From: an uncultured Clostridia bacterium
GTDB lineage: Bacteria > Bacillota > Clostridia > Oscillospirales > Ruminococcaceae
Assembly: GCA_946567425.1 (NCBI GenBank)
Contig: CAMNXF010000002.1
Location: 1-64,000 of the forward strand
DNA: 64,000 nucleotides
Reading direction: 5' to 3'
Shown piece by piece: positions 5,002 to 22,620 of the stretch; positions within the stretch are counted from its first letter, which is position 1; each line of letters opens with the position of its first letter. The notes beneath the pieces are model-generated. The model made no database searches. It was not told the origin of the DNA and saw nothing but the letters and a program-made list of their open reading frames with translations. The position numbers and the translations under genes were made by a program.

Positions 5002-5161
5002 AACCTGTCCACATAGCCGCTCAACGCCCGTATTGCGGCGAATTTTCCGCATAACTTCGTTAATTTTTCTTGAAATACATACAGTATTCCTACGAAAAAT
5101 TGCCTCGTTCTGAGAAAAATCCGCTTCGCAATCCGAGCATTTCGGGCTATGTGGACAGGTT
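5002..5161. repeat. Palindromic interspersed element, copy 1
   Basis: A 160-bp unit bounded by a perfect 17-bp inverted repeat (AACCTGTCCACATAGCC). The interior CGCTCAACGCCCG...ACATACAGTA...ATTTCGG is shared with copies at 20967-21146 and 22457-22620. It lies in the predicted 5' untranslated leader of the P-type ATPase gene, about 20 bp after the -10 box. Confidence 0.85.
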
Positions 5162-5180
5162 TTTAATTAACCACATCATC

Positions 5181-5209
5181 ATTATAAATAAATTACAGGA
5201 CATTGTCAA
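5181..5209 (-). promoter_or_regulatory. Sigma-A promoter of the P-type ATPase gene
   Basis: Consensus TTGACA and TATAAT with a 17-bp spacer. The palindromic element starts about 20 bp downstream, so it would be transcribed as the 5' end of the mRNA. Confidence 0.85.
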
Positions 5210-5249
5210 GACAAAAGTATGATAGATTTGTGAAAGTTTTTCAGCACGC

Positions 5250-5278
5250 TTGATTTTTTACCTCAAATGTGGTATAAT
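5250..5278 (+). promoter_or_regulatory. Sigma-A promoter of citrate synthase
   Basis: TTGATT, 17-bp spacer ending TGTGG, TATAAT. It predicts a leader of about 250 nt that contains the palindrome at 5309-5482. Confidence 0.8.
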
Positions 5279-5308
5279 TTATTATAAGGGAAACTAACCG
5301 ATAAATAA

Positions 5309-5482
5309 AGGCAACACCGCACAATTATTATCGTTCGATTGCGCAGTCGGATTTTTTGTCAGATTGTGCAAATTGAGCGCAGGAAGGCTGACGCCTTTCA
5401 AGCGAAATTTGTGCAAGATGATGGAAAATATGCAAGCAAGCGGACGGCAAAGGCGTTAGCCGCTAATTGTGCGGCGTTGCCT
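5309..5482. repeat. Large palindrome in the citrate synthase leader
   Basis: A 174-bp unit ends in near-perfect inverted repeats: AGGCAACACCGCACAATTA against TAATTGTGCGGCGTTGCCT, with one mismatch. Internal parts GGCTGACGCCTTT and AAAGGCGTTAGCC are themselves related inversely. It does not share sequence with the 5002-5161 family. It lies wholly between the promoter and start codon of citrate synthase. Confidence 0.8.
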
Positions 5483-5535
5483 AAACCTGCCGTGAAGTTT
5501 TAACAATTTTTCGGCTTCGACAGGAGGAATGTGTT

Positions 5536-6876
5536 ATGAACAATATCATCAAGGAGTATGCGGTAAAAAAACAGGAGCTATGCGTTAAAAACGACGTAAT
5601 TTCGGACGAGCTGTACAGCAAGTACGGCGTAAACAGAGGTCTGCGCGATATAAACGGAAAGGGCGTACTTACGGGACTTACCACGATCTCGCAGATGGTC
5701 TCGTTCAAGAAAGTCGACGGGGTGGAAACTCCCTGCGACGGCGAGCTTTGGTACAGGGGCTACAACGTTAAGGACTTGGTCGCAATGTGCGGCGAAAGCG
5801 GTTTCGGCTTCGAGCGCACCGCTTATCTTCTCATTTTCGGCGAAATGCCGACCGAGGAGGAGACCGAGGAGTTCAGAAGAATACTCGGCGAGTGCCGATG
5901 TCTGCCGACCAACTTCACGCGCGACGTTATCATGAAAGCGCCCAGCAAGGATATTATGAACTCAATGACCAGAAGTATTCTCACGCTCGCGTCCTACGAC
6001 AGCACCGCGCTTTCGGGTGATATCTCCGACAGCCTGTATCAGTGCATTATGCTGATAGCACGTTTCCCCATGCTCGCGGCTTACGCTTACCACGCGTACA
6101 ATCACTACGAGAACGACGAGAGTATGTACATACACCGCCCCGACCCCGAGCTTTCAACGGCTGAAAACCTGCTGTTAATGCTCCGCCCCGACAAGGGCTA
6201 CACGCCGCTCGAGGCTAAAGTTCTCGACGTCGCGCTGCTGCTGCACATGGAGCACGGCGGCGGAAACAACTCCACCTTTACCACGCGCGTCGTAACTTCC
6301 TCGGGCTCGGATACCTACTCGACTATTGCGGCGGCAATGTCCTCGCTGAAAGGTCCCAAGCACGGCGGCGCGAACATCAAGGTAATGGAAATGATGGAGA
6401 ATATCCGCGAAAACGTTAAGGACCTCAAGGATTACTACGAGGTTAGCGACTATCTCGGGAAAATACTGGCGGGAGAGGCGTTCGACCGCAAGGGGCTTAT
6501 CTACGGAATGGGTCACGCGGTCTACTCGCTGTCCGACCCGCGCGAGCGCATTTTCAGGGGTTACGTCGAAAAGCTGGCGGTCGCGAAGCACCGCGAGGAC
6601 GACCTGCTGCTGTATAAGTATATTGAAGAAGCCGCGCCGAAGCTTATCGCGCAGAAACGCAGGATAATGAAAGGCGTAAGCCCGAACGTCGACTTTTACA
6701 GCGGATTTGTATACGATATGCTGGGCATACCGAGCGAGCTGTTCACGGCGATATTCGCTATCGCGAGAATAGTCGGCTGGAGCGCTCACCGTATCGAGGA
6801 GCTTTCCACCGCAAGCAGGATAATCCGTCCCGCGTATATGAGCGTTATGCAGAAACACGAAAGCGTCAACAAGTAA
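5536..6876 (+). CDS. gltA: Citrate synthase (Si-type)
   Basis: The enzyme joins acetyl-CoA and oxaloacetate to citrate. The 446-residue chain has the family motifs: HGGGNNSTFTTRV, KGPKHGGAN with an active-site His, GLIYGMGHAVYSLSDPR with the second His, and NVDFYSGFVYDMLGIP with the Asp. A GGAGG lies 8 bases before the ATG. No other citric-acid-cycle gene is adjacent, and a terminator follows, so it is monocistronic. In anaerobic Clostridia it likely feeds glutamate synthesis. The long leader with a palindrome suggests regulation before translation. Confidence 0.95.
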   Translation: MNNIIKEYAVKKQELCVKNDVISDELYSKYGVNRGLRDINGKGVLTGLTTISQMVSFKKVDGVETPCDGELWYRGYNVKDLVAMCGESGFGFERTAYLLIFGEMPTEEETEEFRRILGECRCLPTNFTRDVIMKAPSKDIMNSMTRSILTLASYDSTALSGDISDSLYQCIMLIARFPMLAAYAYHAYNHYENDESMYIHRPDPELSTAENLLLMLRPDKGYTPLEAKVLDVALLLHMEHGGGNNSTFTTRVVTSSGSDTYSTIAAAMSSLKGPKHGGANIKVMEMMENIRENVKDLKDYYEVSDYLGKILAGEAFDRKGLIYGMGHAVYSLSDPRERIFRGYVEKLAVAKHREDDLLLYKYIEEAAPKLIAQKRRIMKGVSPNVDFYSGFVYDMLGIPSELFTAIFAIARIVGWSAHRIEELSTASRIIRPAYMSVMQKHESVNK

Positions 6877-6886
6877 ACTAATACTT

Positions 6887-6920
6887 AGAGGCAAGGAGCG
6901 CGCTTCCTGCCTCTTTTTTC
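6887..6920 (+). terminator. Terminator of citrate synthase
   Basis: The stem AGAGGCA...TGCCTCT, further extended by G-C pairs around GCGCGC, is followed by TTTTTC. Confidence 0.9.
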
Positions 6921-6940
6921 GTCAAAGCGTAAAATTCCTC

Positions 6941-6969
6941 TTGAAAAAAATATGTAATTGTGGTATTAT
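6941..6969 (+). promoter_or_regulatory. Sigma-A promoter of the dnaD-dnaC-pfk cluster
   Basis: TTGAAA, 17-bp spacer ending TGTGG, TATTAT, about 40 bp before the chosen start of the DnaD-like gene. Confidence 0.75.
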
Positions 6970-7007
6970 TTATATGTAAAGGAATTTTTGAGAAAATCGG
7001 TGATGTG

Positions 7008-8009
7008 ATGAAATATTCATTGAACGCGGGCGACTGGAACAGCGTGTTTGCCGTTCCGTCAAGCGTTGTTGACAAATATATCAAGCTCGCGAACGGAAAC
7101 GCACTGAAGCTGCTGCTGTTCCTGCTGCGGCACGGCGGCAAGGAGTTCACGGAGGAGAGGCTGAACGCGGAGCTGGGCTTCCGCGAACGCGGCGAGCTTG
7201 AGGACGCGGCGCTGTTCTGGATACAGCGCGGAATTATCCGCTATGACGACGGACTTACGACCGCTCCCGAAAGCCGCGCCGACGATACCGTCAAGGCTTC
7301 GGAGACTGCGGTCTCCCCTGCCCCGACGGCTGCCGCGAGCACCATGGCCGCCGTCAAGCCCGCGAGCGTATCGTCGGGCGAGGTCGCGGACAGAATAAAG
7401 ACGGACAAGAATTTGCAGGTGCTGTTCAAGGAGGCGGAGCTGCTGTACGCTCACCCGCTGCGTCAGCGCGAAAATCAGCTCGTCATCTCGCTCGTCGACC
7501 ATTACGGACTGCCCGCGGGCGTGGCGCTTATGCTGCTGAATTACTGCTTTAAAGAAGGAAAAACTTCCCCCGGATACATACAGACCGTCGCCGCCGATTG
7601 GGCTGCCGAGGAGATAGACACCATAGAGCTTGCCAACGCGCGTATTCTGGCGCTCGAAAAGCAGAACGCGGTAGAAACGCGTCTGCGCGACGCAATGGAA
7701 ATGACAACGAAGCTCTCCGTTAAAATGCGCCGCTACATCAAGACGTGGACGGAGGACTGGGGCTTCGGCGAGGATATGGTGCTGCTCGCCTACGAAAAGA
7801 CCGTCGACCAGATAAGCGAATGGAAGCCCGAATACGCAAACAAGATACTGGAGAGCTGGAAAAACGAGGGAATACGCTCCCCCGCCGCCGTTGAGCAGAA
7901 CGCGCAGTCGCGGAAGAAGCCGCTTAAGGTCGCGGCAAGCTCGAGCTCGTCCTTCGATATGAACGACGTTATGTCCAAGATAAAGAACCGTTACAAGACC
8001 GAGGGCTAA
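7008..8009 (+). CDS. DnaD-domain replication protein
   Basis: A DnaD-like protein of the primosome, helping load the replicative helicase. The N-terminal part (LANGNALKLLLFLLRHGG, near residues 25-42) is a winged-helix region. A low-complexity Ala/Pro linker follows, then two DnaD C-terminal modules: GLPAGVALMLLNYCF and a second ending WKPEYANKILESWKNEGI. I chose the ATG at 7008 because the upstream extension lies in promoter DNA. The downstream ATP-binding protein gene starts 17 bp after the stop, which fits a DnaD/DnaI-type loader pair. Confidence 0.85.
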   Translation: MKYSLNAGDWNSVFAVPSSVVDKYIKLANGNALKLLLFLLRHGGKEFTEERLNAELGFRERGELEDAALFWIQRGIIRYDDGLTTAPESRADDTVKASETAVSPAPTAAASTMAAVKPASVSSGEVADRIKTDKNLQVLFKEAELLYAHPLRQRENQLVISLVDHYGLPAGVALMLLNYCFKEGKTSPGYIQTVAADWAAEEIDTIELANARILALEKQNAVETRLRDAMEMTTKLSVKMRRYIKTWTEDWGFGEDMVLLAYEKTVDQISEWKPEYANKILESWKNEGIRSPAAVEQNAQSRKKPLKVAASSSSSFDMNDVMSKIKNRYKTEG

Positions 8010-8026
8010 TGTGAAGAGGTAAACGA

Positions 8027-9001
8027 ATGGCTTTGGATAAAAGATTTTTTGAGACGGCGCAGAAGCGGCTCGCGAGCCGGCGGGCGGCAAACAAACAAAC
8101 CGAGGACAGCCGCCGCATGGAAATTCACGGCAGGATACCGAAGTACTGCGAGCTGGAAATACGGCTCGCCGATACAATGACGGATATAGTCGCCGCCGTC
8201 GCCGCGAAAGCGCCCGATTCGGACGTTCGGGTGCGGGAGGCGGTGAGCAGCAACCTCGAGATACAGCGCGAAATGGAACGGCTGCTTGTCGAGAACGGCT
8301 ATCCCGCAAATTATCTCGCGCCGATATTCACCTGCGAAAAATGCCGCGATACGGGAACCGTCGACGGCAAATGGTGCGAGTGCTTCAACAGGCTGCTGAA
8401 CGTCGCCGCCGCCGAGGACCTCAATTCGCATTCGCCGCTGCGGCTGAGCTCGTTTGAGACATTCAGGCTCGACCTTTACCCTACGGCGGTCGACCCCGAA
8501 TTCGGCGAAACTCCGCGCAGTATCATGATGAAGAATTACGACGAATGCAGACGGTTCGCGAACGATTTTAACGGCAAGGGCTACGGGCTGTTCATGATGG
8601 GGAACACGGGGCTGGGCAAAACACATTTGTCGCTTGCGGTCGCCAACGAGCTTATCCGCAAGGGCTTCTGCGTCATCTACGGCTCGGTGCCCGAGCTGCT
8701 GAGACGGCTCGACAAGGAGCAGTTCAAGAACGCCGAGGGCGACACAATGGAGCTTGTCACGGGCTGCGAGCTGCTTATCCTCGACGACCTCGGCGCAGAA
8801 AACAACACCGACCGCTACACCGCGCTGCTCTACGAGATGATAAACGCGCGGCAGAGCCGTTCGCTGCCCATGATAATCAACACCAACCTCGAAATGGCAC
8901 AGATAAAGGCGCGCTATCAGGACAGGCTGTGGTCGAGATTGTTCAGCATGAGAGTGCTTATCTTCCGCGGCGACGACAACAGGCTGAAAATAAACGGATA
9001 A
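8027..9001 (+). CDS. DnaC/DnaI-type helicase loader ATPase
   Basis: A 324-residue AAA+ protein with Walker A GNTGLGKT at 192-199 and Walker B LLILDDLGAE near 245-254. A Cys cluster (C103, C106, C117, C119) precedes the ATPase domain, as in loaders that bind zinc. It probably loads the replicative helicase together with the DnaD-like protein encoded just upstream. The start has GAGG about 8 bases before the ATG. Confidence 0.85.
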   Translation: MALDKRFFETAQKRLASRRAANKQTEDSRRMEIHGRIPKYCELEIRLADTMTDIVAAVAAKAPDSDVRVREAVSSNLEIQREMERLLVENGYPANYLAPIFTCEKCRDTGTVDGKWCECFNRLLNVAAAEDLNSHSPLRLSSFETFRLDLYPTAVDPEFGETPRSIMMKNYDECRRFANDFNGKGYGLFMMGNTGLGKTHLSLAVANELIRKGFCVIYGSVPELLRRLDKEQFKNAEGDTMELVTGCELLILDDLGAENNTDRYTALLYEMINARQSRSLPMIINTNLEMAQIKARYQDRLWSRLFSMRVLIFRGDDNRLKING

Positions 9002-9036
9002 TTTTGCCGCTACGGCATTTAATTTGGAGGTAAACT

Positions 9037-10122
9037 ATGGGAAAACTTAAAATCGGTATCCTTACAAGCGGCGGCGACTGCCCCGGACTTAACGCGACCA
9101 TTCGCGGCGTCGCAAAGGCGACCTACGAGACCTTCGGCGACGACAAGGTGGAGATAATCGGCATTCACGACGGGTATCACGGGCTTATCCACGGCGATTA
9201 CAAGATAATGTCTCCGTCCGATTTCTCGGGAATTCTGACGACGGGCGGTACTATCCTCGGCACGAAGCGCACGCCCTACAAGATGATGCAGATAATCGAG
9301 GACGACAACGTTGACAAGGTCAAGGAGATGAAGCAGACCTACAAGGAGCTTAAGCTCGACTGTCTGTTCACGCTCGGCGGCAACGGCACTCACAAGACCG
9401 CGAATATGCTCTCCGAGGAGGGCTTGAACGTTATCGGACTGCCCAAGACTATCGACAACGACATTTACGGCACGGACGTTACGTTCGGGTTTCACACCGC
9501 CGTCGACATAGGAACGGAGGTCATCGACCGCATACACACCACCGCAAACTCCCACAGCCGCATTATGGTCATCGAGATAATGGGCAACAAGGCGGGCTGG
9601 CTTACGCTGTACAGCGGCGTTGCGGGCGGCGCGGACATTATCCTTATCCCCGAGATACCGTTCGACATTGACAAGGTGGCAAAGGCTTGCCAGAGACGCG
9701 CGGACGCGGGCAAGGAGTTCTCTATCCTCGCGGTCGCGGAGGGAGCGTTCGACGTCGAGGAGGCTAAGCTCAAGAAAAAGGAGCGGGCAAAGGCGCGTGC
9801 GGAGCGCGGCGAGGTCACGGCGACAACGCGTATCGCAAAGACTATCGAGGAAAAAACGGGGCTTGAGACCAGAACGGTCGTTCCCGGGCATATTTTGCGC
9901 GGCGGCTCGCCCTCGGCTTACGACAGACTGCTCGCAACGCAGTTCGGCGCTCACGCGGCGCGGCTGCTCAAGCAGGAGAAGTTCGGCTTTACCGTTGCCA
10001 TGGTCGACGGCAAGATAACCGAAAATCCCCTCGGCGACGTCGCCATGAAAACCAAGTTCGTCACCGACGACAGCCAGATAGTTAAGACCGCGCGGGATAT
10101 CGGTATTTCCTTCGGCGATTAA
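9037..10122 (+). CDS. pfkA: 6-phosphofructokinase (predicted ATP-dependent)
   Basis: The 361-residue enzyme phosphorylates fructose 6-phosphate in glycolysis. It has the nucleotide loop TSGGDCPGLNA (10-20), GGNGT at 114-118 and PKTIDNDIYG at 136-145, and HILRGGSPSAYDR for sugar binding. The residue after N116 is Gly (G117), which in this family favours ATP; pyrophosphate enzymes have Asp there. K137 is the residue usually seen in pyrophosphate enzymes, so the pair Gly/Lys is mixed. It is preceded by GGAGG and sits 35 bp after the helicase-loader gene. Confidence 0.93.
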   Translation: MGKLKIGILTSGGDCPGLNATIRGVAKATYETFGDDKVEIIGIHDGYHGLIHGDYKIMSPSDFSGILTTGGTILGTKRTPYKMMQIIEDDNVDKVKEMKQTYKELKLDCLFTLGGNGTHKTANMLSEEGLNVIGLPKTIDNDIYGTDVTFGFHTAVDIGTEVIDRIHTTANSHSRIMVIEIMGNKAGWLTLYSGVAGGADIILIPEIPFDIDKVAKACQRRADAGKEFSILAVAEGAFDVEEAKLKKKERAKARAERGEVTATTRIAKTIEEKTGLETRTVVPGHILRGGSPSAYDRLLATQFGAHAARLLKQEKFGFTVAMVDGKITENPLGDVAMKTKFVTDDSQIVKTARDIGISFGD

Positions 10123-10125
10123 GCG

Positions 10126-10965
10126 TCACGCGCGGACGGGAGCGTGCTTCTCCCTAGCGACCGCCGCTCTTATCGAGCCGCCGTTGAGAATTACGGGCGA
10201 ACGCTCGCAGGAGCACATCGCGATAACGCGGTCGTAGACGCGCGCGAGAGCGAGATTGTCGGGCTGCTTCATCATTTCGGGGGAGAGGTTGGTGGTGACG
10301 ATAAGCGGCTTGCCCGAACGCGCTCTGGTGTCGATAATTTCAAACAGCAGCTCGTTGCTGCGCTCGGTGGATTTGGTCGTGCCGAAGTCGTCGAGGACAA
10401 GCAGGTCGACCTTGGCGACGCGTTCAAAAACGCTGTCCGCCTTGGCGAAATCCCCCGCGCTCCGCAGCAGCGGCAGCATAATCGTGAGCCACACGTCGTA
10501 ACCCCGCTCCACAAGCTCGTTGGCGATACAGCACGCCGCGAACGTCTTGCCCGTGCCGACTGTTCCCATAAACAGCAAGCCCTTGTTTTCCGACAGCATT
10601 GCGGCGAAATTCCCGCAATACCATTTCGCGGTATCAACCGCTTTAGGACAGGAGCCGTTATCCGCCGCGAAATTCAGCCTGCGGTACGCCGCGTCGCCGA
10701 TACATTTCTCGCGGCGATACTCAATTATCTGCCGCCGCCGAGCTTCCTCCTCGGCGGCTTTTTCGGCGTTTAAACGCGCCGCTTCGCATTCGCAGGTCTG
10801 CCCGAAAAGCACCTGCCTGCCGCCTATCTCGCGGTAGCTCTGCTTGGGAGTTCGGCATTTTCCGCAGTACAGCAGACCGTTTTCCTCGTAGTCGCCGTCG
10901 CTGCGGACGGTGTTTATCAGCGACGTCTGCGCCAAATTCAACATAATTTCATCGTAAATATTCAT
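10126..10965 (-). CDS. Phage/element-type DnaC-like ATPase
   Basis: A second helicase-loader type AAA+ protein of 279 residues. C34, C37, C58 and C60 form a zinc-like cluster; a charged helix follows, then Walker A GTVGTGKT at 134-141 and Walker B LLVLDDFGTT. It differs clearly from the plus-strand loader at 8027. The gene for a replication initiator lies upstream on the same strand, so the two form a replication module of a phage or integrative element. It converges on pfkA with 3 bp between the stops. Confidence 0.8.
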   Translation of the reverse strand: MNIYDEIMLNLAQTSLINTVRSDGDYEENGLLYCGKCRTPKQSYREIGGRQVLFGQTCECEAARLNAEKAAEEEARRRQIIEYRREKCIGDAAYRRLNFAADNGSCPKAVDTAKWYCGNFAAMLSENKGLLFMGTVGTGKTFAACCIANELVERGYDVWLTIMLPLLRSAGDFAKADSVFERVAKVDLLVLDDFGTTKSTERSNELLFEIIDTRARSGKPLIVTTNLSPEMMKQPDNLALARVYDRVIAMCSCERSPVILNGGSIRAAVAREKHAPVRA

Positions 10966-11000
10966 CTCAATACCTCACAATTTCACTATTGCAGCCGCGC

Positions 11001-11031
11001 GGAATTGCCGCTGCTTTTCGCCGGCAATTCC
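11001..11031 (-). repeat. 10-bp hairpin between the replication genes
   Basis: GGAATTGCCG and CGGCAATTCC form a perfect stem with an 11-base loop. No T-run follows, so it may be an mRNA stability or processing signal between the initiator and the DnaC-like gene. Confidence 0.5.
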
Positions 11032-11062
11032 ATAAGCCGAATCAGGTGCGGCGGCTCTCCGC

Positions 11063-11848
11063 TTAATCATACAGCGAAACCTCGTAGTCCGCCGCAGTCG
11101 GAACGGCTTTTGCTTTTGCGGCGCCGTAGTTCTCCGAGTATGCTCCCGAAACGATTTTCGCAAGATTATCGGGCTTCATTATCCACTCGAAGTTCGCTTT
11201 GAACCTGCCGCTTCTGCCGCTTAAAAAGTCGCTTTGCTCTACAAGCGAAAACAACTCCTCAAAAGTCATACCGCCCATAATTGCGGTCGCTTTGCTTATA
11301 AGCTCCGCTTTGTGCTGAACGGCGATATTCGGCTTGATACTTGGTAAGCTCTTGCAGATCCCGTTGTATTTGCCGACAACAAAAGCAACATTATTTTCCG
11401 CGAAAGCCACCGCTTCTTCGGCTTCTTCTTTTCTTGTATTATTATTTAATAATGTAGGGCGGTTAATATCTTGTGCGTTATCGGGTTGATAACTGTTTAA
11501 TGTATCGGTGAAAATCTCGTTGTTGTTGAAGTTGCCGTCAAGCAGATTATCGTAATTATTCACGGTAATAACGCTGATTTTCGACTGCACCGAAACAGTT
11601 ATGTCACCGGTTGATTTGAGGTGAGCGAGCGCGGTCTTGACCTGTTGTATCGTAAGTTGATTTTCTGCTGCTAACTCGGGAATTGTCGTGACGAACTGCC
11701 CGCGATGTATTTTGAAACCGCGCACCGTTTCATCTTCCCAAGAAGCTCCCAACAGAATATGCAGAAAAACCGCGCGTGTGTTCAGCTTGCCGTACCAAGT
11801 CCATTCGCGGATTTTCCGCGGCAGCTGTATAAAGCCCGTATTGTTCAT
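11063..11848 (-). CDS. Phage-type replication initiator (DnaD-like organisation)
   Basis: The 261-residue protein opens MNNTGFIQLPRKIREWTWYG, a pattern of phage and element replisome-organiser proteins with an N-terminal winged helix (residues about 10-95: RGQFVTTIPELAAENQLTIQ). A polar linker follows and then a C-terminal segment with FLSGRSGRFKANFEWIMKPDN, typical of phage replication proteins. The start at 11848 has GAAAGGAAGTG before it; an upstream in-frame start is possible but lacks this site. With the downstream DnaC-like gene it is a replication module left from a mobile element. Confidence 0.75.
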   Translation of the reverse strand: MNNTGFIQLPRKIREWTWYGKLNTRAVFLHILLGASWEDETVRGFKIHRGQFVTTIPELAAENQLTIQQVKTALAHLKSTGDITVSVQSKISVITVNNYDNLLDGNFNNNEIFTDTLNSYQPDNAQDINRPTLLNNNTRKEEAEEAVAFAENNVAFVVGKYNGICKSLPSIKPNIAVQHKAELISKATAIMGGMTFEELFSLVEQSDFLSGRSGRFKANFEWIMKPDNLAKIVSGAYSENYGAAKAKAVPTAADYEVSLYD

Positions 11849-11876
11849 AAAAGCACTTCCTTTCTGCACCTATTAT

Positions 11877-11929
11877 ATAATAGCCGTTACTGCAAAAAGC
11901 TGCAAATTTTTTCCTGCAGATATTTGCAG
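11877..11929 (-). promoter_or_regulatory. Promoter with four TGCA boxes before the element replication genes
   Basis: TTGCAG (11900-11905), a 17-bp spacer and TATTAT (11877-11882) form a minus-strand promoter. TGCA occurs at 11891, 11901, 11915 and 11925, that is at spacings 10, 14 and 10, and CTGCAAAT/ATTTGCAG form a dyad. This looks like an operator or initiator-binding site. From here to tRNA-fMet (11930-12110) I see only a 22-codon ORF at 11977 with a GGAG site and no clear gene. Confidence 0.5.
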
Positions 11930-12124
11930 AACAGTATGTGGTATTATTTATCAAAGAGGACGACGGAGCATAGGAAATGGAAACTGATTTGCCGCGGCTG
12001 CATTACCGCGCGGTTTCACGGCAAAACAATTGCTGCAAAGAGTAAGTTTCAACTTTTGAAAATCGTGATTATTAGAAATGTGTTAGAAAAAGCGGCGGTG
12101 TCAGAGGTTTAAAGGCAAAAAAAA

Positions 12125-12149: not shown

Positions 12150-12158
12150 CTTAAACTA

Positions 12159-12235
<77 letters not shown>

Positions 12236-12631: not shown

Positions 12632-12632
12632 A

Positions 12633-13627: not shown

Positions 13628-16384
13628 ATGAGAAAACACGACAGCAGCTACACTGTAAATTACATTGTCAGAACCGCTGAGGAATGCCTTAATGGCAAAT
13701 TCCGGCGCAGTCAATACAGCAAGGTTATTCTTCCGCTTACGTTTATCGCACGGCTTGACGCGGTGCTTGAAAGTACAAAGCCCGACGTCCTCGCCGCACT
13801 TGAACAAATGACCGTGCCCGACCCGAACATTCTTTGCAAGGTTGCCCGTCAGCCGTTCTTCAACACTTCCCCGCTTGATCTTAACGACGTTATCCGCTGC
13901 GGCAAAAAGAATGTCGCCGAGCGCTTTTACTCATATCTCAACGGATTTTCGGCGAACGTAACGGAGATACTCGAGCTGTTCGGGTTCAAAGCGGTGGTCG
14001 GGCAGCTCGCCGAAGCGGGAGTCCTCGGCGAGCTGCTGGAGAGGTTCACCTCGAAATGGATAGGATTAAGCCCCGAACCCACCTACAAAAACCTCGAGCG
14101 TACCGACGTGCTCCTGCCCGGCTCGGACAGCCGCGAAATGGGCGCGCTGCTCATTGCTGTGGCGGAACAGCTCGACGAGCGCTTCATCGAGGGACAGACC
14201 CCCAAGGATGTCGCGCGGCTTATGACGGAGCTTGTTTTCACGCCCGCCGCCGATGATATAACGGACGGCGAATACTCGGTATACGACGGAACGTGCGGTC
14301 TGGGAGAACTTATCTCCGCGTCCGACAAAAAGCTGCGCGAGCTTGCCGAAACGTCGGGAAAGACGATATCCGCGCATATCTACGGTCAGGAGCCTAACCC
14401 CGAATTTTACGCGTTGTGCAAGGCGGCGTTCCTTTTGAACGAGGAAAACACCGCCGCGAATATCTCTTTCGGCTCTTCCCTTTCCGCGGACAACAACACC
14501 GAAGGCAAGTTCGATTTTATGATATCCTGTCCGCCCTACGGGAAAAGCTGGAAAGCCGACTTTGATAAAATGAGCACGCACGGACGCGTCGACGACAAGC
14601 GTTTCACCGACGATATAAAGATCGCAGCTCCGCAGAATATGGTGCCCGGAACACGCGACGGTCAGCTTCTTTATCTGCTGAACAACGTTTCCAAAATGAA
14701 GGACACTCCGCTCGGCAGCCGTATCGTCGAGATACACAGCGGTTCGCTGCTGTTCTCGGGTATGGCGGGCAGCGCGGAGAGCAACGCGCGGCGATACCTT
14801 ATCGAGCGCGATCTTATAGAAGCGATCATAGCGCTGCCGAAAAATTTTTTCTTCGGCACTGCCAACCAATCGTTTATATTGGTGCTCTCCAACCGCAAGG
14901 AAGAACGCCGCAAGGGCAAGGTTCAGCTTATCAACGCGTCCGCAATGAAACTGCCGCTGCAAAAAAATACCGGCAGAAAAAACTGCGAAATGAGCGAAAA
15001 TATCCGCGCGGAAATAATGCGGATATTCACCCGCATGGAGGAGAGCGAGGTAAGCCATATTATCGATGGACGCGAGTTCGGGTATTGGTCTGTGACGGTC
15101 GACAGCCCGCTGCGTCAGCGCGTCGACGTAAACACCGAAACCATTAAGGACACGCTCTCTATGTTTAAAACGCTGTATGGCGTGGATACCGACCACAGGG
15201 ACGACGATATTCCCGAGGTGGGTGCTGTCGACCTGTTTTCATTTGCCAAAGACAACCCCGAAGCGCGCACAATAAAAACCCCGAAAACATGGGGCGAGGT
15301 GCAATTTGAACAGATCTACAACATTTATATGAAGATACTTATCGACCTGATGAGGGAAGAGCCGTATTCGGACTATAATGACTTTCTGGAACGCTTTAAC
15401 GCCCACCCGCTGCACAAGAAAAACTCCACGGGCTTTTCTGAATTCGAGGATTTTATGTTCCCGCTGCTTACGAAGGATCCCTCCGCTGCCGTCGTCATGA
15501 GAAACGGCATGCCCGTTCCCGATGAGGATATGCGCGTTGTAAAGACCGTGCCGTTTACGTATGACGGCGGTCTTGACGGATATATCAGAAACGAGATACT
15601 TCCACAGGAGCCCGACGCCATAGCTTACCCCGAGAGCGCGAGGAAAGGCTGCGAGATCAATTTCTCGAAATACTTTTACAAGCCGCGGAAGCTGCGCGGA
15701 GCGTCGGAGATCATAAAGGAGCTTCAGCAGCTTGAACGAGAGATCGATGAGCTTAAAAAAAGCAGCGCCGCAGCCGCTGTTCTGCGGCAAGCCGAGAAAA
15801 CGCCTGCCGCAGAAAAAAACGTCGTCCGCAGCGTCACCCTTGAGAGCGTCGCAAGCGAGCAGCTTATCAGAAACACGGACTTTGCGGAAAGAAATGTGCT
15901 GTCGCTAGTCGACGGGAGAATCGTCAAAAAGAACGTCGACCTTTCGAGCGGCAAAATGCCCGCCGCATACAAGAACTACCGCATAGTTTTCCCGGGAAAT
16001 ATTATCCTGCGGCTTACCGAGTTCCGCAGCGGACAAACCGAACCGCGCACGGCGCTCGCCGCCGAACAGGGCATAATCTCCTCGTCCTGTCTCTGCCTTA
16101 AAGCAGCGGATAATATTCTTCCCGAATATCTGTATCTGCAGCTTCACATCGCCGATATTTCGGGTATGTTTCTGGAGCTTGGCGGAGGACTTCGGCGTAA
16201 TCTCGGCTTTAAGGATATCGCGAAGCTGCCGATACGTATAGTTCCGCTTGAAGAGCAAAAAGCGGTTATCGAGAGCGTCCGCGAAACCGACGTTCCGATA
16301 ACCGCCGTGATAGACAAGCTCAACAAAGCCGTAACTGCTTTACATGAGCTTGAAAATTCACTTATTCTGAATCATTTGCGCTGA
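13628..16384 (+). CDS. HsdM-type adenine methylase fused to an HsdS-like specificity domain
   Basis: The 918-residue chain has an HsdM N-terminal helical domain (1-150), a gamma-type N6-adenine methylase domain, the methylase C-terminal region with CEINFSKYFYKPRKLR, a coiled coil (about 700-725), and a single HsdS-like target-recognition half ending VPLEEQKAVIESV. SAM motif I reads YDGTCGLGE. The catalytic motif IV, normally NPPY/F, reads CPPYG, so the key Asn is Cys; activity is doubtful. No hsdR or separate hsdS is next to it. It is transcribed away from the Xre operon. It could be a solitary methylase, or a DNA-binding protein derived from one. Confidence 0.85.
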   Translation: MRKHDSSYTVNYIVRTAEECLNGKFRRSQYSKVILPLTFIARLDAVLESTKPDVLAALEQMTVPDPNILCKVARQPFFNTSPLDLNDVIRCGKKNVAERFYSYLNGFSANVTEILELFGFKAVVGQLAEAGVLGELLERFTSKWIGLSPEPTYKNLERTDVLLPGSDSREMGALLIAVAEQLDERFIEGQTPKDVARLMTELVFTPAADDITDGEYSVYDGTCGLGELISASDKKLRELAETSGKTISAHIYGQEPNPEFYALCKAAFLLNEENTAANISFGSSLSADNNTEGKFDFMISCPPYGKSWKADFDKMSTHGRVDDKRFTDDIKIAAPQNMVPGTRDGQLLYLLNNVSKMKDTPLGSRIVEIHSGSLLFSGMAGSAESNARRYLIERDLIEAIIALPKNFFFGTANQSFILVLSNRKEERRKGKVQLINASAMKLPLQKNTGRKNCEMSENIRAEIMRIFTRMEESEVSHIIDGREFGYWSVTVDSPLRQRVDVNTETIKDTLSMFKTLYGVDTDHRDDDIPEVGAVDLFSFAKDNPEARTIKTPKTWGEVQFEQIYNIYMKILIDLMREEPYSDYNDFLERFNAHPLHKKNSTGFSEFEDFMFPLLTKDPSAAVVMRNGMPVPDEDMRVVKTVPFTYDGGLDGYIRNEILPQEPDAIAYPESARKGCEINFSKYFYKPRKLRGASEIIKELQQLEREIDELKKSSAAAAVLRQAEKTPAAEKNVVRSVTLESVASEQLIRNTDFAERNVLSLVDGRIVKKNVDLSSGKMPAAYKNYRIVFPGNIILRLTEFRSGQTEPRTALAAEQGIISSSCLCLKAADNILPEYLYLQLHIADISGMFLELGGGLRRNLGFKDIAKLPIRIVPLEEQKAVIESVRETDVPITAVIDKLNKAVTALHELENSLILNHLR

Positions 16385-16547
16385 TAATGTCGATTTGTGG
16401 AATGTATCCGCAATCGACCGACCCGATACAATATCCAAGACCCGAAACTCCGCTGAGACTACTGCCCGATATGTGACCGATAACCTGTCCGCGCTCGAGC
16501 TTTTCTCCCTCGCTAACGGTCAGATTGCTGTCAAGGTGATAATGCAT
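16362..16547 (-). pseudogene. Remnant of an M23 (LytM) peptidase
   Basis: Sixty-one codons read HYHLDSNLTVSEGEKLERGQ then VIGHISGSS, the core beta-strands of M23 metallopeptidases. The N-terminal zinc ligand region and the C-terminal HxH motif are missing, a stop codon precedes the first ATG, and the 3' end overlaps the methylase gene. It is therefore a fragment, probably left when neighbouring genes were inserted or rearranged. Confidence 0.55.
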
Positions 16548-16567
16548 TTACAGAAAGGAAAAACAGT

Positions 16568-18652
16568 ATGGAAAAATATCTTGATGAAACGTTAAGTATA
16601 CAGGAGCGCGCAGAAGCGCTCACCGACGCTATGACAACAGACGAGCAGGCAAGCCAGCTGCGGTACGACGCGCCCGCGGTAAAGCGGCTCGGCATACCCG
16701 CGTACAACTGGTGGAACGAGGGGCTGCACGGACTGGCGCGTTCGGGAGTGGCGACTATGTTCCCGCAGGCGATAGGGCTTGCGGCGATGTTTTCGCCTGA
16801 GCTTGTCAAAAGAGCCGGAGAGATCGTCGCTGAGGAAACGCGCGCGAAATACAACGCGTACCAAAAGCACGGCGACCGCGACATTTATAAAGGCTTGACG
16901 ATCTGGTCACCGAACATAAACATTTTCCGCGACCCGCGCTGGGGCAGAGGTCACGAGACCTACGGCGAGGATCCGTTCCTCACGGCGGAAAACGGAAAAG
17001 CCTATGTCAAGGGGCTTCAGGGAGACGGCAAGGTCCTCAAAACAGCGGCGTGCGCTAAGCATCTTGCCGCGCACAGCGGTCCCGAGGCTATACGTCACGA
17101 ATTTAACTCCGAGGTCTCGCCGAAAGATATGGAGGAAACCTATCTCCCCGCGTTTGAGGAGCTTGTGAAAAACGCGCGCGTCGAGGGCGTTATGGGCGCG
17201 TACAACTGCGTCAACGGAGAGCCTGCCTGCGCGAGCGGTTTCTTAATGGGAAAACTCCGCGATTGGGGCTTTGACGGCTATTTCGTTTCGGATTGCTGGG
17301 CAATCAACGATTTTCACGCACATCACGGAATTACGGGCAATGCCGTGGAATCGGCGGCGCTCGCGCTTACGGCGGGCTGCGACGTTAATTGCGGGTGCAC
17401 TTATGTGAACGTTCTCGCGGCGCTTGAAAAAGGCTTAGTCACCAAAGACCATATCCGAAACGCTTGCGTTCATCTTATGCGCACGAGGATAAGGCTCGGA
17501 ATGTTTAACGCGAAAACGGAGTTCGACAATATCCCGTACAGCGTCGTATCCTGCCGTGAGCATAAGAACGTTTCTCTCGAATGCGCCGAAAGATCCATGG
17601 TTCTGCTGCGTAACAACGGTATTCTTCCGCTGGACGAAAACAAAATCAAAACCCTCGCGGTGATAGGTCCGAACAGCATGAGCCGCGCGGCTCTGGAGGG
17701 CAATTACTGCGGCACTGCGGACAGATACGTTACGTTCCTCGAGGGCATTCAGAACAGATTTAACGGACGCGTCATCTTCGCCGAGGGCTGCCACCTGTAC
17801 AAGGACAGAAGCTCCACTCTGGCAATGGCGGGCGACAGATACGCCGAAGCGGAAGCCGCCGCCGAAAACTCCGACGCGGTCATTCTCTGCGTTGGTCTTG
17901 ACGCGACTATAGAGGGCGAGGAGGGCGACGTCGGCAACGAGTTCTCGTCGGGAGATAAAAACGACCTCCGTCTCCCCGAAAGCCAGCGGATACTCGTCGA
18001 CAAAATAATGAAGCTCGGCAAGCCCGTTGTTATCGTATGCGCCGCGGGGAGCGCGATAAACGTCGAATGCGAACCCGACGCGCTGCTCCACGTCTGGTAT
18101 CCCGGCTCGGAGGGCGGCACCGCGCTCGCGGAGATACTGTTCGGCGACGTTTCGCCCTCGGGAAAGCTGCCCGTTACATTTTACGAGAGCGCGGAACTGC
18201 TCCCCGAGTTCACCGACTATTCGATGAAAAACCGCACCTACCGTTACGCGAAAAACAACGTGCTGTTCCCGTTCGGTTTCGGACTGACTTACTCCGATAT
18301 CGTCTGCACAGATATCCGTTACGAGGACTGCAGGGCTGTGGTCTCCGTCGAAAATAAAGGCGGAAGAGCGACAGAGGACGTTATCGAGCTGTATATCAAG
18401 GACTACGGTGAAAACGCCGTTCCCAACGTAAGCCTTTGCGGATTTAAACGGATAAAACTCGCCGCAGGAGAAAAGAAGTCAATTGAGATACCCGTCTCCG
18501 AGAGAGCGTTCACCGCAGTTGATAAGAACGGCACAAGACAGCGTTTCGGCAGCAGATTTACGCTGTACGCGGGAACGCACCAACCCGACTCGATAAGCGA
18601 ACGTCTCAGCGGACGCGGGTGCGTAAGCGTTGAGGTCGTTTTCCCCGACTGA
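16568..18652 (+). CDS. Glycoside hydrolase family 3 (beta-glucosidase/beta-xylosidase type)
   Basis: A 694-residue cytoplasmic enzyme, without signal peptide, that would release terminal beta-linked sugars from oligosaccharides. The (beta/alpha)8 domain has YNWWNEGLHG, SPNINIFRDPRWGRGHETYG and KHLAAHSG; the nucleophile is D242 in VSDCW. The alpha/beta sandwich domain has IEGEEGDVGNEF, and a fibronectin III-like domain closes the chain (about 600-690). AGAAAGG lies before the ATG. It converges with the alpha-galactosidase gene. Substrate choice between glucosides and xylosides cannot be read with certainty; the NWWNEGLHG form is common in xylosidases. Confidence 0.9.
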   Translation: MEKYLDETLSIQERAEALTDAMTTDEQASQLRYDAPAVKRLGIPAYNWWNEGLHGLARSGVATMFPQAIGLAAMFSPELVKRAGEIVAEETRAKYNAYQKHGDRDIYKGLTIWSPNINIFRDPRWGRGHETYGEDPFLTAENGKAYVKGLQGDGKVLKTAACAKHLAAHSGPEAIRHEFNSEVSPKDMEETYLPAFEELVKNARVEGVMGAYNCVNGEPACASGFLMGKLRDWGFDGYFVSDCWAINDFHAHHGITGNAVESAALALTAGCDVNCGCTYVNVLAALEKGLVTKDHIRNACVHLMRTRIRLGMFNAKTEFDNIPYSVVSCREHKNVSLECAERSMVLLRNNGILPLDENKIKTLAVIGPNSMSRAALEGNYCGTADRYVTFLEGIQNRFNGRVIFAEGCHLYKDRSSTLAMAGDRYAEAEAAAENSDAVILCVGLDATIEGEEGDVGNEFSSGDKNDLRLPESQRILVDKIMKLGKPVVIVCAAGSAINVECEPDALLHVWYPGSEGGTALAEILFGDVSPSGKLPVTFYESAELLPEFTDYSMKNRTYRYAKNNVLFPFGFGLTYSDIVCTDIRYEDCRAVVSVENKGGRATEDVIELYIKDYGENAVPNVSLCGFKRIKLAAGEKKSIEIPVSERAFTAVDKNGTRQRFGSRFTLYAGTHQPDSISERLSGRGCVSVEVVFPD

Positions 18653-18657
18653 TAATT

Positions 18658-18695
18658 CAAAAAAAACCGCAGGCATTGCTTGCGGTTTTTTGAAT
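18658..18695. terminator. Bidirectional terminator between GH3 and alpha-galactosidase genes
   Basis: TTCAAAAAA-AACCGCA...TGCGGTT-TTTTGAA forms a stem flanked by A and T runs on both sides, serving both convergent genes. Confidence 0.88.
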
Positions 18696-18696
18696 A

Positions 18697-20940
18697 TTAC
18701 TGCCTTACAAAATGAACGACCTTGGACGTGAAATCCCCGTCGAGCTTTACAAAAATTCCCGCGTTCATAAGCGCGCTTCCGCTGAGCATCTCCCCCGTTT
18801 CCGAATTTTTGTAACAGGCGTCGGGGTCGAGACCCTTCAGCCTGATACGTCTGCTTCGGTAGTTGGGTCTGCCAAGCACCTGTACAAACGTGAAAACCGC
18901 CTCAGACTTATCCTTTGCAACGAATATCCATGCGTCCCACATATTGTCCTCGAAAACGTTGCCTATGCGGTATTGGTCTCCCGTGCGGATAATCGGGTTG
19001 TACTTGTTGAACTCCGCGATCTGCGCGGGGATAGCGTCTCTGTCCGCCTGCGGTATTCTCGTCACGTCAAGCTCGTAGCCGAACGTTCCCACCATTGCGA
19101 CGTTCCCTCTTGTGGAAAACGGAGTTGTACGCCCTACCGTGTGATTGGGGCAGTCGGAAACGTGCGCTCCCATTGCGGAGACGGGGTAGCATATCGACGT
19201 GCCGTGCTGTATCTTCAGCCGCTCAATTGCGTCGGTGTCGTCGGAGCACCATATCTGCGGCGAGTAGTAGAGCATTCCCGGGTCAAAGCGCGCGCCGCCG
19301 CCCGAGCAGTTCTCCAGAAGAATGTGCGGATAGTCGGTCGTAAGCCTGTTCATCAGATCGTAAACGCCGAGCACGTACCTGTGCCAAAGCTCGCGCTGAC
19401 GCTCCTTAGGCAGCGAGGTCGAGCCGACCTCGGTAAGCTGTCGGTTCATATCCCACTTGATATACTCGATATTCGCGCTGTCGAGAACGTTCTTCATCAT
19501 ACCGTAAACACAGTCGCGGACTTCCTTGTTTGAGTAGTCGAGAACGTACTGCTCGCGCGACATCGTCATATCTCTGCCGCAAACCTGTATCGCCCAGTCG
19601 GGGTGCTTTTTGTACAGCTCGCTGTCGGGCGAGATCATCTCGGGCTCAAACCATATACCGAACTTCATACCCAGCTTGTTCACCTCGTCGACAAGGTGCT
19701 TCAAGCCGCCCTTGAGCTTCTTTTCATAGACGAACCAGTCGCCGAGCGAGCTGTTGTCCGCGCCTCTGTGACCAAACCAGCCGTCGTCCATAACAAGCAT
19801 TTCAATGCCGAGCTTTGATGCTTCACGCGCGATGTCAATGAGCTTGTCGGTGTCAAATCCGAAATAGGTAGCCTCCCAGTTGTTTATGAGTATCGGACGG
19901 CGCTTGTCCTTGTACTCGCCGCGGATAAGGTGTTCTCTGTACAGGTCGTGGAACGTGCGCGACATCTTGCCTATTCCCCCGTCCGAGTAGACCATGACCA
20001 CCTCGGGCGCGGTAAATTCCTCGCCCTCCTCCAGCAGCCAGTTAAAGTCAAAATGGTTTATGCCCATGACCGCCCTTGTGCACTTGTTCTGCGTCACCTC
20101 CGCCTGCGCGAAAAAGTTTCCGCTATACACGAAATTAAAGCCGTAAGCCTCGCCCTTATCCTCGTCCGCGTTATGCGAAACAAGCGCCATAAACGGATTG
20201 TTCTGGTGCGAGGATTCGCCCCTTACGGAATCTATCCCCTGTTTGCCGTGGTGGAGCTTGGAGCGCTCCAAAACACGCTCTCTCGCCCAGCTGCCGTTAA
20301 GAGTTATCAAATCGTAGCAGTCGTTGTCAAAGTCCACGCACGCCGACAACACCCGCTTTACGTTAAGCGGCGCTTTGCCCGTGTTTTTCAGGCGAACGCT
20401 CCTCGTAATAACGTTCAGCCCGTTGAATACCGTATAAAGCAGAACCGCCTCGAGCCCCGTGTGCTTATCTGTACAAGTGATCTCGAGAGTTTCCGCCTCG
20501 TCCTCGTTTGCGAACGTCGCGGGCAGCCCCTCCAAAGCGGGCTTTCCCTTGTAAACCTTATGAGAAACGTACCGCAGATCGCATGTAGTCATACCCTCGC
20601 CGTCCATTACCATAAGGCACGGTTCGCGGTAGTCGCCCGTTCCGTGGCAAGGGTATTCAAACGCGGTCTGATCCATAAACGTTCCCATGTCACGCATATT
20701 GGTCTTAGGAACCCACGGATTTTCCTCCAGACGCAGAAGATAAGTGAGATCGTCACCGCTTAACCTCTTCCCGAAATAACCATGTATAAGATACCCCTCG
20801 TCGATAACGCCGAAAACGTAGCTTGTGTCCTTTGCGTCAAGCTGAAACATTTTAATATCCTCGGCAAAACCAACGTTGTCGTTTATTTGCCATGCCCACC
20901 TTTTGTATTCCTTGTGATAATCGCGAACAATTATACCCAT
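18697..20940 (-). CDS. Alpha-galactosidase, glycoside hydrolase family 36
   Basis: The 747-residue cytoplasmic enzyme removes alpha-galactose from raffinose-type sugars and galactomannan fragments. After the N-terminal beta-supersandwich domain the barrel contains LVMDDGWFGHRGADNSSLGD and KFGIWFEPEMI; the nucleophile is D497 in IKWDMNR, and the acid/base is D567 in WCSDDTDA. LENCSGGGARFDPGMLYYSP is the GH36 hallmark between them. No signal peptide is present. An aldose epimerase gene lies upstream on the same strand, separated by palindromic element copy 2. Confidence 0.95.
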   Translation of the reverse strand: MGIIVRDYHKEYKRWAWQINDNVGFAEDIKMFQLDAKDTSYVFGVIDEGYLIHGYFGKRLSGDDLTYLLRLEENPWVPKTNMRDMGTFMDQTAFEYPCHGTGDYREPCLMVMDGEGMTTCDLRYVSHKVYKGKPALEGLPATFANEDEAETLEITCTDKHTGLEAVLLYTVFNGLNVITRSVRLKNTGKAPLNVKRVLSACVDFDNDCYDLITLNGSWARERVLERSKLHHGKQGIDSVRGESSHQNNPFMALVSHNADEDKGEAYGFNFVYSGNFFAQAEVTQNKCTRAVMGINHFDFNWLLEEGEEFTAPEVVMVYSDGGIGKMSRTFHDLYREHLIRGEYKDKRRPILINNWEATYFGFDTDKLIDIAREASKLGIEMLVMDDGWFGHRGADNSSLGDWFVYEKKLKGGLKHLVDEVNKLGMKFGIWFEPEMISPDSELYKKHPDWAIQVCGRDMTMSREQYVLDYSNKEVRDCVYGMMKNVLDSANIEYIKWDMNRQLTEVGSTSLPKERQRELWHRYVLGVYDLMNRLTTDYPHILLENCSGGGARFDPGMLYYSPQIWCSDDTDAIERLKIQHGTSICYPVSAMGAHVSDCPNHTVGRTTPFSTRGNVAMVGTFGYELDVTRIPQADRDAIPAQIAEFNKYNPIIRTGDQYRIGNVFEDNMWDAWIFVAKDKSEAVFTFVQVLGRPNYRSRRIRLKGLDPDACYKNSETGEMLSGSALMNAGIFVKLDGDFTSKVVHFVRQ

Positions 20941-20966
20941 ATAATATCATTCCTTTCGTTTGTAAA

Positions 20967-21146
20967 AACCCGGACCAATAACCGCTCAACGCTCGTCTTG
21001 CGGCAAATTTTGCCGCTTTCAGCGTCAAAGCTCCTTAAGCGTTTTGCCGAAAGCATAATGCGTACATACAGTACGTCGGCGTCGCATTTCCTTGAGAGCG
21101 GCAAAATTTGCTCGCAATCCAAGCATTTCGGGTTTTGGTACGGGTT
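20967..21146. repeat. Palindromic interspersed element, copy 2
   Basis: A 180-bp unit with imperfect terminal arms AACCCGGACCAATAACC against GGTTTTGGTACGGGTT. The interior shares CGCTCAACGCTCG, ACATACAGTA and GCAATCCAAGCATTTCGG with copy 1. It fills the gap between the epimerase stop and the alpha-galactosidase start, 26 bp before the latter. I see no strong promoter in front of it. Confidence 0.8.
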
Positions 21147-21154
21147 CTGAATTT

Positions 21155-22018
21155 CTACTTGCCGACCGCGGATATCGAGTAGGTGAACGCTCTCTCCTCG
21201 CCGCTTTGCAGCGTTACTGCACCGCGCTTTTCGGCGAACACGCCCGTGCAGTCGTCAAAATCCGCCGAGCCGCACCACGGCTCAATACACAAGAACGGCG
21301 CGTCCTTTGCCTGCCATACGCCAAGACTTGTAAAGTCGGGATAGTCCACACGAACGCCCTTGTTGTCCTTGTCGAGCAGCATAACCGAGCGCGAGACTAT
21401 TTTATCGAAATAGCACACGTCCTTATAGAACAGCTCGTGCTTCAACGGCAGGACTGTTTCGCCGTTAAGCAGCGGACGGCGGTTGTTCTCCTCGTGCAGA
21501 CCCGTTTCAAGGTTGTAATTCGGCACTGCGGCGGTCTCGGGCTTGGCGAATTCGAGACGGTAGTCCGTGAACTCGCCGCCGCACATGAACGCGGGGTGTG
21601 CTCCGATACAGAACGGCATAGGCTCGCCGGAGTTATTCTTAACACGGTAGGTCACCGCGATTCCGTCCGATTTGAGCGTGTACGTCACCGTAAAACGGAA
21701 ATCAAACGGGAACATTCCGCGCGTGTAGTCGTTCTGCTCGAGCGCGAACGTAACGGACGTTCCGCTTACGGTCACGGGAGTAAGCTCCAGATCGCGCGCG
21801 AAACCGTGCTTTGTTATCGCGTACTCCTTGCCGTTGATAAGCGTTTTTCCGCCGCGCAGAGTGCCGATCATCGGGAACAGCAGCGGAGAGGTCTTTCCCC
21901 AGAACGCGGGGTCGGCACTCCACATGAGCTCCCGTCTGTTAACGGTGAGCGATTTAAGCTCCGCGCCCTTTGAGATTATCTTCGCGGCGCAGTTGTCATT
22001 TTTAAGCTGAATTTCCAC
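21155..22018 (-). CDS. Aldose 1-epimerase family protein (LacX-like)
   Basis: A 287-residue galactose-mutarotase-fold protein. It carries WSADPAFWGKTSPLLFPMIG near residues 33-52, KHGFARDLE with a probable catalytic His, and FCIGAHPAF with the second. These match the LacX/YeaD branch more than GalM itself. It would interconvert alpha and beta anomers of sugars released by the neighbouring glycosidases. A GGAGG site precedes the ATG. It lies 13 bp after the hemerythrin gene stop and so is co-transcribed with it. Confidence 0.85.
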   Translation of the reverse strand: MEIQLKNDNCAAKIISKGAELKSLTVNRRELMWSADPAFWGKTSPLLFPMIGTLRGGKTLINGKEYAITKHGFARDLELTPVTVSGTSVTFALEQNDYTRGMFPFDFRFTVTYTLKSDGIAVTYRVKNNSGEPMPFCIGAHPAFMCGGEFTDYRLEFAKPETAAVPNYNLETGLHEENNRRPLLNGETVLPLKHELFYKDVCYFDKIVSRSVMLLDKDNKGVRVDYPDFTSLGVWQAKDAPFLCIEPWCGSADFDDCTGVFAEKRGAVTLQSGEERAFTYSISAVGK

Positions 22019-22031
22019 AATTATCCTCCGA

Positions 22032-22430
22032 TCACTTGTTTAAAAACGCGCCGAGCTTTTTATCCTCGGTGCGGATATGCGAGATCAGTACGCCGATATG
22101 GTTATTCAGCTTCATCAGCGAGCCGATCGAAGCGTCCGACGAGGAGACCTCAGCCGTTATTTCCTTCAGCGTTTTCTTGAAATTCTCATGGAACGCCTTG
22201 TGAGCGGTATAGTTCAGATATCCGCTTTTCTGCTGAAGCTGCTCCTCGTGCGCGAAATGACGGTCGACATAGTTGTTCAGAAACGTAATCGTTTGATTGA
22301 CGTTCTCCCGTCCTTTGCCCGCGCTGCAAGCGTCCAGCAACTTGTTTACCGCGTCTATCAGCTCGCGGTGCTCCTTGTCGATAATTGCGCTGCCCGTTTC
22401 CAGATTCGGGGTAAATTCATATCTTGCCAT
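22032..22430 (-). CDS. Bacteriohemerythrin
   Basis: A 132-residue four-helix protein binding a di-iron centre that holds oxygen. Iron ligands follow the family pattern: DKEHRELI (first His), HFAHEEQ (His and Glu), HKAFHENF (two His) and HIRTED (His and Asp). In anaerobes such proteins sense or scavenge oxygen or store iron. It is preceded by GGAGG and by palindromic element copy 3 with a promoter just beyond, so that element would form nearly all of its mRNA leader. Confidence 0.93.
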   Translation of the reverse strand: MARYEFTPNLETGSAIIDKEHRELIDAVNKLLDACSAGKGRENVNQTITFLNNYVDRHFAHEEQLQQKSGYLNYTAHKAFHENFKKTLKEITAEVSSSDASIGSLMKLNNHIGVLISHIRTEDKKLGAFLNK

Positions 22431-22456
22431 ATTTTTTTCCTCCCAAAAATATTACC

Positions 22457-22620
22457 AGAGCGTGTTCACATTAACCGAAATGTCCGGATTTCGAAGCGAA
22501 TTTTGCGCATTTCGAGGCGAAAATTCGCAGACGTACTGTATGTACTTCAAGAATTTTTAACGAAGAAAGGCGCAAAATTCGCCGAAAGACGGGCGTTGAG
22601 CGTTAATGTGAACACGCTCT
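22457..22620. repeat. Palindromic interspersed element, copy 3
   Basis: A 164-bp unit bounded by a perfect 19-bp inverted repeat (AGAGCGTGTTCACATTAAC). On the minus strand its interior reads CGCTCAACGCCCG...GTACATACAGTACG...ATTTCGG, matching copies 1 and 2 in the opposite orientation. The -10 box of the hemerythrin promoter ends four bases before it. Confidence 0.85.

Follow-up and report, generated by a model that had tools for sequence, protein, structure and literature searches.

The window, by which we mean the whole stretch of 64,000 nucleotides that was analysed, carries three palindromes at the places where an earlier note had put them (5002-5161, 20967-21146 and 22457-22620), and all three were confirmed by sequence. 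A covariance model built from 28 copies was used to place the elements in the window. It agreed with the note on position and extended the ends by up to 2 bases outward. The features are as follows, with class names assigned in this analysis.

2438-2521, minus strand: tRNA gene
5000-5163, plus strand: copy 1, class A ends, covariance-model match 183.4 bits
5000-5018 and 5145-5163: arms of copy 1, class A
5310-5481, minus strand: fourth element, class H, 172 bp, covariance-model match 5311-5480, 27.6 bits
12162-12235, minus strand: tRNA gene
20965-21148, plus strand: copy 2, decayed class E ends, about 184 bp, covariance-model match 104.6 bits
22457-22620, minus strand: copy 3, class B ends, covariance-model match 187.4 bits
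42557-42630, minus strand: tRNA gene

The arms pair within each copy, as the note had reported: at 19 of 19 positions in copy 3, at 17 of 17 in copy 1 (18 of 19 if counted from 5000) and, in copy 2, whose arms it had called nearly paired, at 15 of 19 by count on the sequence. The common interior that it had described is present in copies 1 to 3, and copy 3 has it in reverse orientation. The flanking triplets of copy 1 (TCA and TTA) are of the TNA type and non-identical, those of copy 2 are TAA and TGA, and the flanking dinucleotides of copy 3 also differ (TA versus TG in element orientation). The better-folding family strand of copy 1 is the minus strand of the window, and that of copy 3, by family orientation, is the plus strand. 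Folded as single-stranded DNA, copy 1 had a z-score of -5.9 and was equalled by none of 200 shuffles, indicating that its fold is not due to chance. The GC content of copies 1 to 3 is 0.44 to 0.49, so these copies are not AT-rich; AT-richness is usual for MITEs but does not define them. Rfam 15 gave no match at gathering score in the window except the three tRNAs, and in five member loci its one match, MIR8007, scored far too low, at 30.8 bits against a cut-off of 195.

The element at 5310-5481 has the ends GGCAACACCGCACAATTA and GGCAACGCCGCACAATTA and is flanked by the 4-bp duplication TAAA/TAAA. The E value of its covariance-model match was 8.3e-5 in the window and 3.9e-7 in a short stretch. 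It folds better on the plus strand of the window (-79.4 versus -60.3 kcal/mol). Judged by this match, the element is a distant relative of the family interior.

The palindromes are members of a multi-copy family of one genus of gut bacteria, found when the genome and its relatives were searched with the covariance model, as the note had proposed. With copy 1 as a DNA query, 22 matches were obtained in its own genome, one of them the reverse strand of the query itself, and the covariance model gave at least 39; since a palindrome can match on both strands, matches are not necessarily copies. A covariance-model match was found in at least 34 of the 43 genus genomes. When one copy was used as a DNA query, 10 of 41 genomes matched, all from the same genus, to which 25 of the 41 belong. 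Of 345 genomes of the order, one, the own genome, showed the class B end pattern, and only 3 of the 345 are from this genus. A GTDB scan returned 59 stretches, most of them from MAGs of Oscillospiraceae or Clostridia; Weissella, Fibrella, Terracidiphilus and a Synergistaceae MAG gave one match each. In relatives, contigs L019, L021, L027 and L389 terminate inside these elements, indicating that copy numbers from draft genomes are probably too low. From the matches listed, a set of 141 non-redundant copies was assembled.

The arms fall into classes A to E, G and H, each common to many copies. They form terminal inverted repeats of 18 to 19 bp that are identical or nearly identical in many copies.

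Class A end: AGAACCTGTCCACATAGCC
Class B end: AGAGCGTGTTCACATTAAC
Class C end: AGAGCCTGTTTAGTATCTC
Class D end: AGAACTTGTTCTCATAGCC
Class E end: AGAACCTGTACCAATAGCC
Class G group: around GAGCTTGTGTTCATAGGA
Class H end, unrelated to the others: GGCAACACCGCACAA followed by TTA or AGA

Target duplications were counted among the 141 non-redundant copies, restricted to those whose arms had two mismatches or fewer. Identical 3-bp TNA duplications flanked 33 of 36 class C copies (re-paired flanks gave a mean of 18.1 and a maximum of 28 in 5,000) and 12 of 21 class A copies (mean 3.2, maximum 9), as well as 8 of 9 in class E (P 0.013) and 6 of 7 in class G (P 0.017). Class D had an identical 3-bp duplication in 1 of 7 copies, which is no excess over re-paired flanks. 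Class B had 3-bp TNA duplications in 0 of 36 copies and 2-bp duplications, mostly TA, in 27 of 36, the latter being a raw count without a null. In class H, 15 of 21 copies had 4-bp duplications, 10 of them TTAA. Among the 87 copies in which both arms were classed, a single one had two classes, the similar D and G. These sequence patterns indicate that the classes behave as transposon terminal inverted repeats and that the elements are MITE-like non-autonomous transposons, a known kind. The earlier note had seen the arms as diverging copy by copy and as unlike ordinary transposon ends. Instead, the differences run between classes, the ends and the duplications are specific to each class, and the ends match IS5-family elements. 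Many copies with identical arms, which the note had named as evidence against its reading, were found. Class H ends are also very common in relatives, with at least 77 end matches in genome G054; they occur as two end subtypes, which were matched within the copy in most pairs compared. Hairpins of 46 to 57 bp with little but two ends were seen at eight loci (L156, L163, L162, L094, L077, L078, L111 and L138) and are possibly deletion derivatives.

The DUF4096 domain of the IS5 family was found at seven places in 4 of the 43 genus genomes. An 842-bp element in genome G051 has class E-like ends and the flanks TAA/TAA. An 825-bp element in the own genome, which carries DUF4096 and DDE pieces, has class G-like ends (15 of 18 positions at each end) between the non-identical triplets TAA and TTA. 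The own genome also contains a remnant, about 800 bp long, whose left end agrees with class A at 17 of 18 positions and whose right end is degenerate, and a remnant in G020 has a class C-like sequence at one end. In G023, a class B-like end adjoins the C-terminus of an IS5 transposase at a contig end; the best match of this C-terminus was NF033580 (1.7e-23, 83.5 bits, below the whole-protein cut-off of 110). Partners were thus seen at both ends for E and G, with a degenerate second end for A and at one end each for B and C; none was found for class D or H among the 43 genus genomes. All partners are decayed by stops, frame breaks or contig ends, and none is intact. The TNA target is also that of the IS1031 group.

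Two of the seven DUF4096 places (L275 and L277) had no end of any class, and a third (L278) had ends related to the classes but different from them. The IS5-family element at L109/L278, on contig C5 of the own genome, has the ends TTAGAACCTATCCAACAATA and lies beside an 84-bp class C hairpin; no miniature element with these ends was recognised. At L106, contig C1 of the own genome encodes a 407-aa DDE transposase flanked by long inverted repeats; this 1578-bp element is unrelated to the classes. PF01609 was examined in three genomes, with four places in the own genome, one in G018 and none in G014, and one of these places was rejected as a partner, being an unrelated larger element. IS630 was considered as the class B partner on account of the 2-bp TA duplications. 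DDE_3 was present in 5 of 43 genomes, the G054 element had unrelated ends, and a class B end was later seen beside the IS5 transposase fragment; IS630 was set aside.

Insertion was confirmed by empty sites. In two species, differently-ended elements lie about 13 to 15 bp apart in the same intergenic region, and in each species the other's site is unoccupied. For a third insertion the empty site was seen in a relative, and a fourth comparison yielded no clean empty site. In one genome, seven class B copies of 190 bp, nearly identical to each other, occupy different sites, and four of the seven are identical; some copies are thus recent.

The end classes cluster on the tree of the interiors, with 22 changes among seven labels against a mean of 62.9 when the labels were shuffled. 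In the 66 of 106 copies with agreeing arms, 17 class changes were counted on the interior tree where 5 would suffice. Tests of each class as a single clade in these copies rejected A (p 3e-6) and B (p 0.009) and did not reject C (p 0.38) or E (p 0.06), each of which could form one clade. A first AU test with strict signatures had rejected class C as a clade (p 1e-52); this was not upheld in the rerun, and the first test was set aside because near variants outside a class break such a test. Copies L032 and L047 have interiors within the class B clade, A-like ends and 3-bp duplications, indicating that the duplication type follows the ends and not the interior. The class H elements lie in 23 loci, some of them overlapping. 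Eight matched the covariance model at E values of 8e-10 to 9e-5 and one at 0.004; others, such as those in L369 and L376, were unmatched by it. This unrelated H end on a related interior is the strongest sign of end replacement. Since interior and arm class do not have one common history, ends have probably been exchanged, and we infer that they were exchanged rather than re-evolved. A paraphyletic ancestral class, or recombination between copies, could account for part of the class pattern.

The interior alignment comprised 106 copies; the other 35 of the 141, with longer or shorter interiors, were left out. A five-base helix block is perfectly paired in 95 of the 106 copies across at least 13 different sequences, and a recurrent mismatch is retained in another interior helix. 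A 67-pair consensus was voted from individual folds of the better-folding strand, and the null for covariation consisted of 60 sets of columns, each column simulated independently on the interior tree. At E<0.05, 25 of the 67 pairs covaried (18 of the 48 in the interior and 7 of the 19 in the arms), as against 0 of 12,813 other column pairs under the same null. The structure came from the same copies as the test, a bias in its favour, for which the zero among other pairs is the control. Covariation therefore rises above the phylogenetic background, as the note had anticipated.

In 104 of the 106 copies the better fold is that of the strand opposite to the model orientation, by a mean of 17.8 kcal/mol, because part of the mismatches of one strand are G.U on the other. 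By parsimony, 91 changes in interior pairs created G.U and 39 created A.C (P 6e-6). In the outer 12 arm pairs the numbers were 25 and 25 (Fisher P 0.015 versus the interior). Mutation bias was rejected as the cause of the G.U excess, since unpaired interior sites gave 60 to 56, no such bias, against 87:37 for single-sided interior changes (Fisher P 0.004). Relative to the unpaired rates, about 0.4 to 0.5 of G.U-creating and about 0.2 of A.C-creating changes were retained. A main-family profile built on sequence alone could orient 9 of 20 class H elements (7 at E below 0.01), and the better-folding strand agreed with the profile orientation in all 9 placed. Together, the covariation and the asymmetry indicate an interior probably under selection for a strand-specific fold, most simply RNA. 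The note had proposed that the folded form is selected; this appears to hold for the interior, with its covariation and RNA-like asymmetry, and is not supported for the end arms.

The same asymmetry could arise if the fold were selected as strand-specific single-stranded DNA or as a cruciform, for example bound by a protein or as a transposition intermediate. DNA, too, tolerates G.T more readily than A.C, so that the excess of G.U over A.C does not separate DNA from RNA, and the absence of an orientation bias to genes (below) would also suit a DNA form. However, the duplications and the IS5-family partners point to a DDE transposase, which acts on double-stranded ends, and the ends themselves lack strand asymmetry. 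We consider the DNA reading quite unlikely and infer that the fold acts as RNA.

Changes were then assigned to branches of the interior tree, using three random resolutions. In the core stems, inner branches had 84 double changes against 18-19 G.U, 3 A.C and 28-29 other single changes, and terminal branches had 45 double, 47 G.U, 22 A.C and 57 other changes. This pattern fits selection on the fold among spreading copies, with decay probably coming later. If the interior were under no selection, pairing and G.U would have been inherited from a few recently amplified ancestors and would now be decaying, as the clustering of classes on the tree and the presence of recent copies might suggest. This is highly improbable, because independently simulated columns on the same tree fail to reproduce the covariation, the helix block remains perfect across its many sequences, and the strand bias is present in the inferred changes on terminal branches too.

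Of the 84 inner-branch double changes, 39 were of the transversion type, impassable via G.U, so that hairpin template-switching may have supplied some of the variants. In this process, also called quasipalindrome correction, folded replication copies one arm onto the other without selection. Template switching is described as creating and mending RNA hairpins in RNA genes (PMC8794818). Copy L047 may be an instance, since its left arm equals its right arm while the near-identical L032 has a differing left arm. However, the process does not distinguish between the strands and would remove G.U pairs and mismatches, whereas G.U is kept and favoured on one strand and the recurrent mismatch persists inside a covarying helix. 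Nor does it predict arm classes that are common to copies and tied to duplication length. Template switching, which the note had offered as the alternative to selection, may thus be a source of double changes; on its own it leaves the retained mismatches and the strand bias unexplained, and as the whole explanation it is unlikely.

The arms require a different account from the interior. Of the 81 single-sided changes in the outer arm pairs, 69 fell on terminal branches and 12 on inner ones; matched double changes numbered 27 on terminal and 32 on inner branches. Copies with unlike ends therefore look like dead ends. The arms of a copy would pair because a single transposase has to accept both ends.

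The reading that we prefer, and regard as probable, is a two-part MITE with transposase-matched ends of several classes, a strand-specifically selected hairpin interior and ends that are swapped. The outer 18 to 19 bp would be the terminal inverted repeats of one of the classes, each recognised by its own transposase, which belongs to the IS5 family in those classes with an identified partner. If its two ends did not match, a copy would not move on, and the arms would in this way stay complementary. The interior of about 125 bp would be a hairpin maintained by purifying selection on one of its strands, in the simplest case as an RNA fold produced by read-through of the element. The same interior would be joined to different end classes, giving at least three insertion modes, with 2-, 3- and 4-bp duplications.

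Copies lie mostly between genes, and no promoter for the element was found by eye. Gene contexts were obtained for 81 copies with a simple ORF caller, 11 of them at locus edges and 4 inside an ORF. The 66 that were classified showed no orientation bias (21 with both neighbours, 23 against both and 22 mixed), and a role as an untranslated region of neighbouring genes was rejected on this ground. The lack of bias suggests that the fold serves the element more than the neighbouring gene, and selection would act on the element's own spread. A bolder reading, which we hold tentatively and think rather doubtful, is that the conserved RNA hairpin is the persisting mobile unit, which repeatedly changes ends and transposase, with the RNA needed for spread or for host survival. 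Integron attC-like sites were also considered, since their stems vary while pairing is kept; the duplications and DDE partners point elsewhere.

The descriptions of ERIC, Correia/NEMIS, RUP and BOX are of small intergenic multi-copy palindromes with terminal inverted repeats, target duplications and stable folded transcripts, and RUP is mobilised in trans by an IS with like ends, IS630-Spn1 (PMC2229807, PMC3049150, PMC10969869). By description, the present family resembles them in ends, duplications, size and copy number. It differs from those descriptions in combining one interior with a number of end classes and with duplications of three lengths, and in that the interior is apparently under strand-specific purifying selection. 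Like REPINs as described (PMC3116915), the elements are miniature mobile bacterial palindromes; unlike them, they have target duplications and DDE-type ends. IS427-group elements of Paracoccus are reported as 832-865 bp long with mostly 2-bp duplications (PMC3281130), and likewise the partners found here measure 825-842 bp with DUF4096/DDE pieces and class B has 2-bp duplications. Unlike IS5-family insertion sequences, the elements carry no transposase, and their interior was absent from the partners examined. The compensatory double changes resemble the one-step ones in the account of template switching in RNA genes (PMC8794818); in contrast to those genes, the hairpin here is a mobile element whose end arms would be explained by transposase matching.

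Although the kind of element is known, the open-access literature searched gave no named family with this behaviour, of which the note had known none either, and no case that combines exchangeable ends with an interior selected on one strand. Two questions can now be tested: by what route non-autonomous elements pass from one transposase to another, and whether selection acts on a MITE's transcript as such. MITEs are usually read as shortened insertion sequences with a dispensable middle; in this family it is the middle that is retained, whereas the ends differ and the length of the duplication goes with them.
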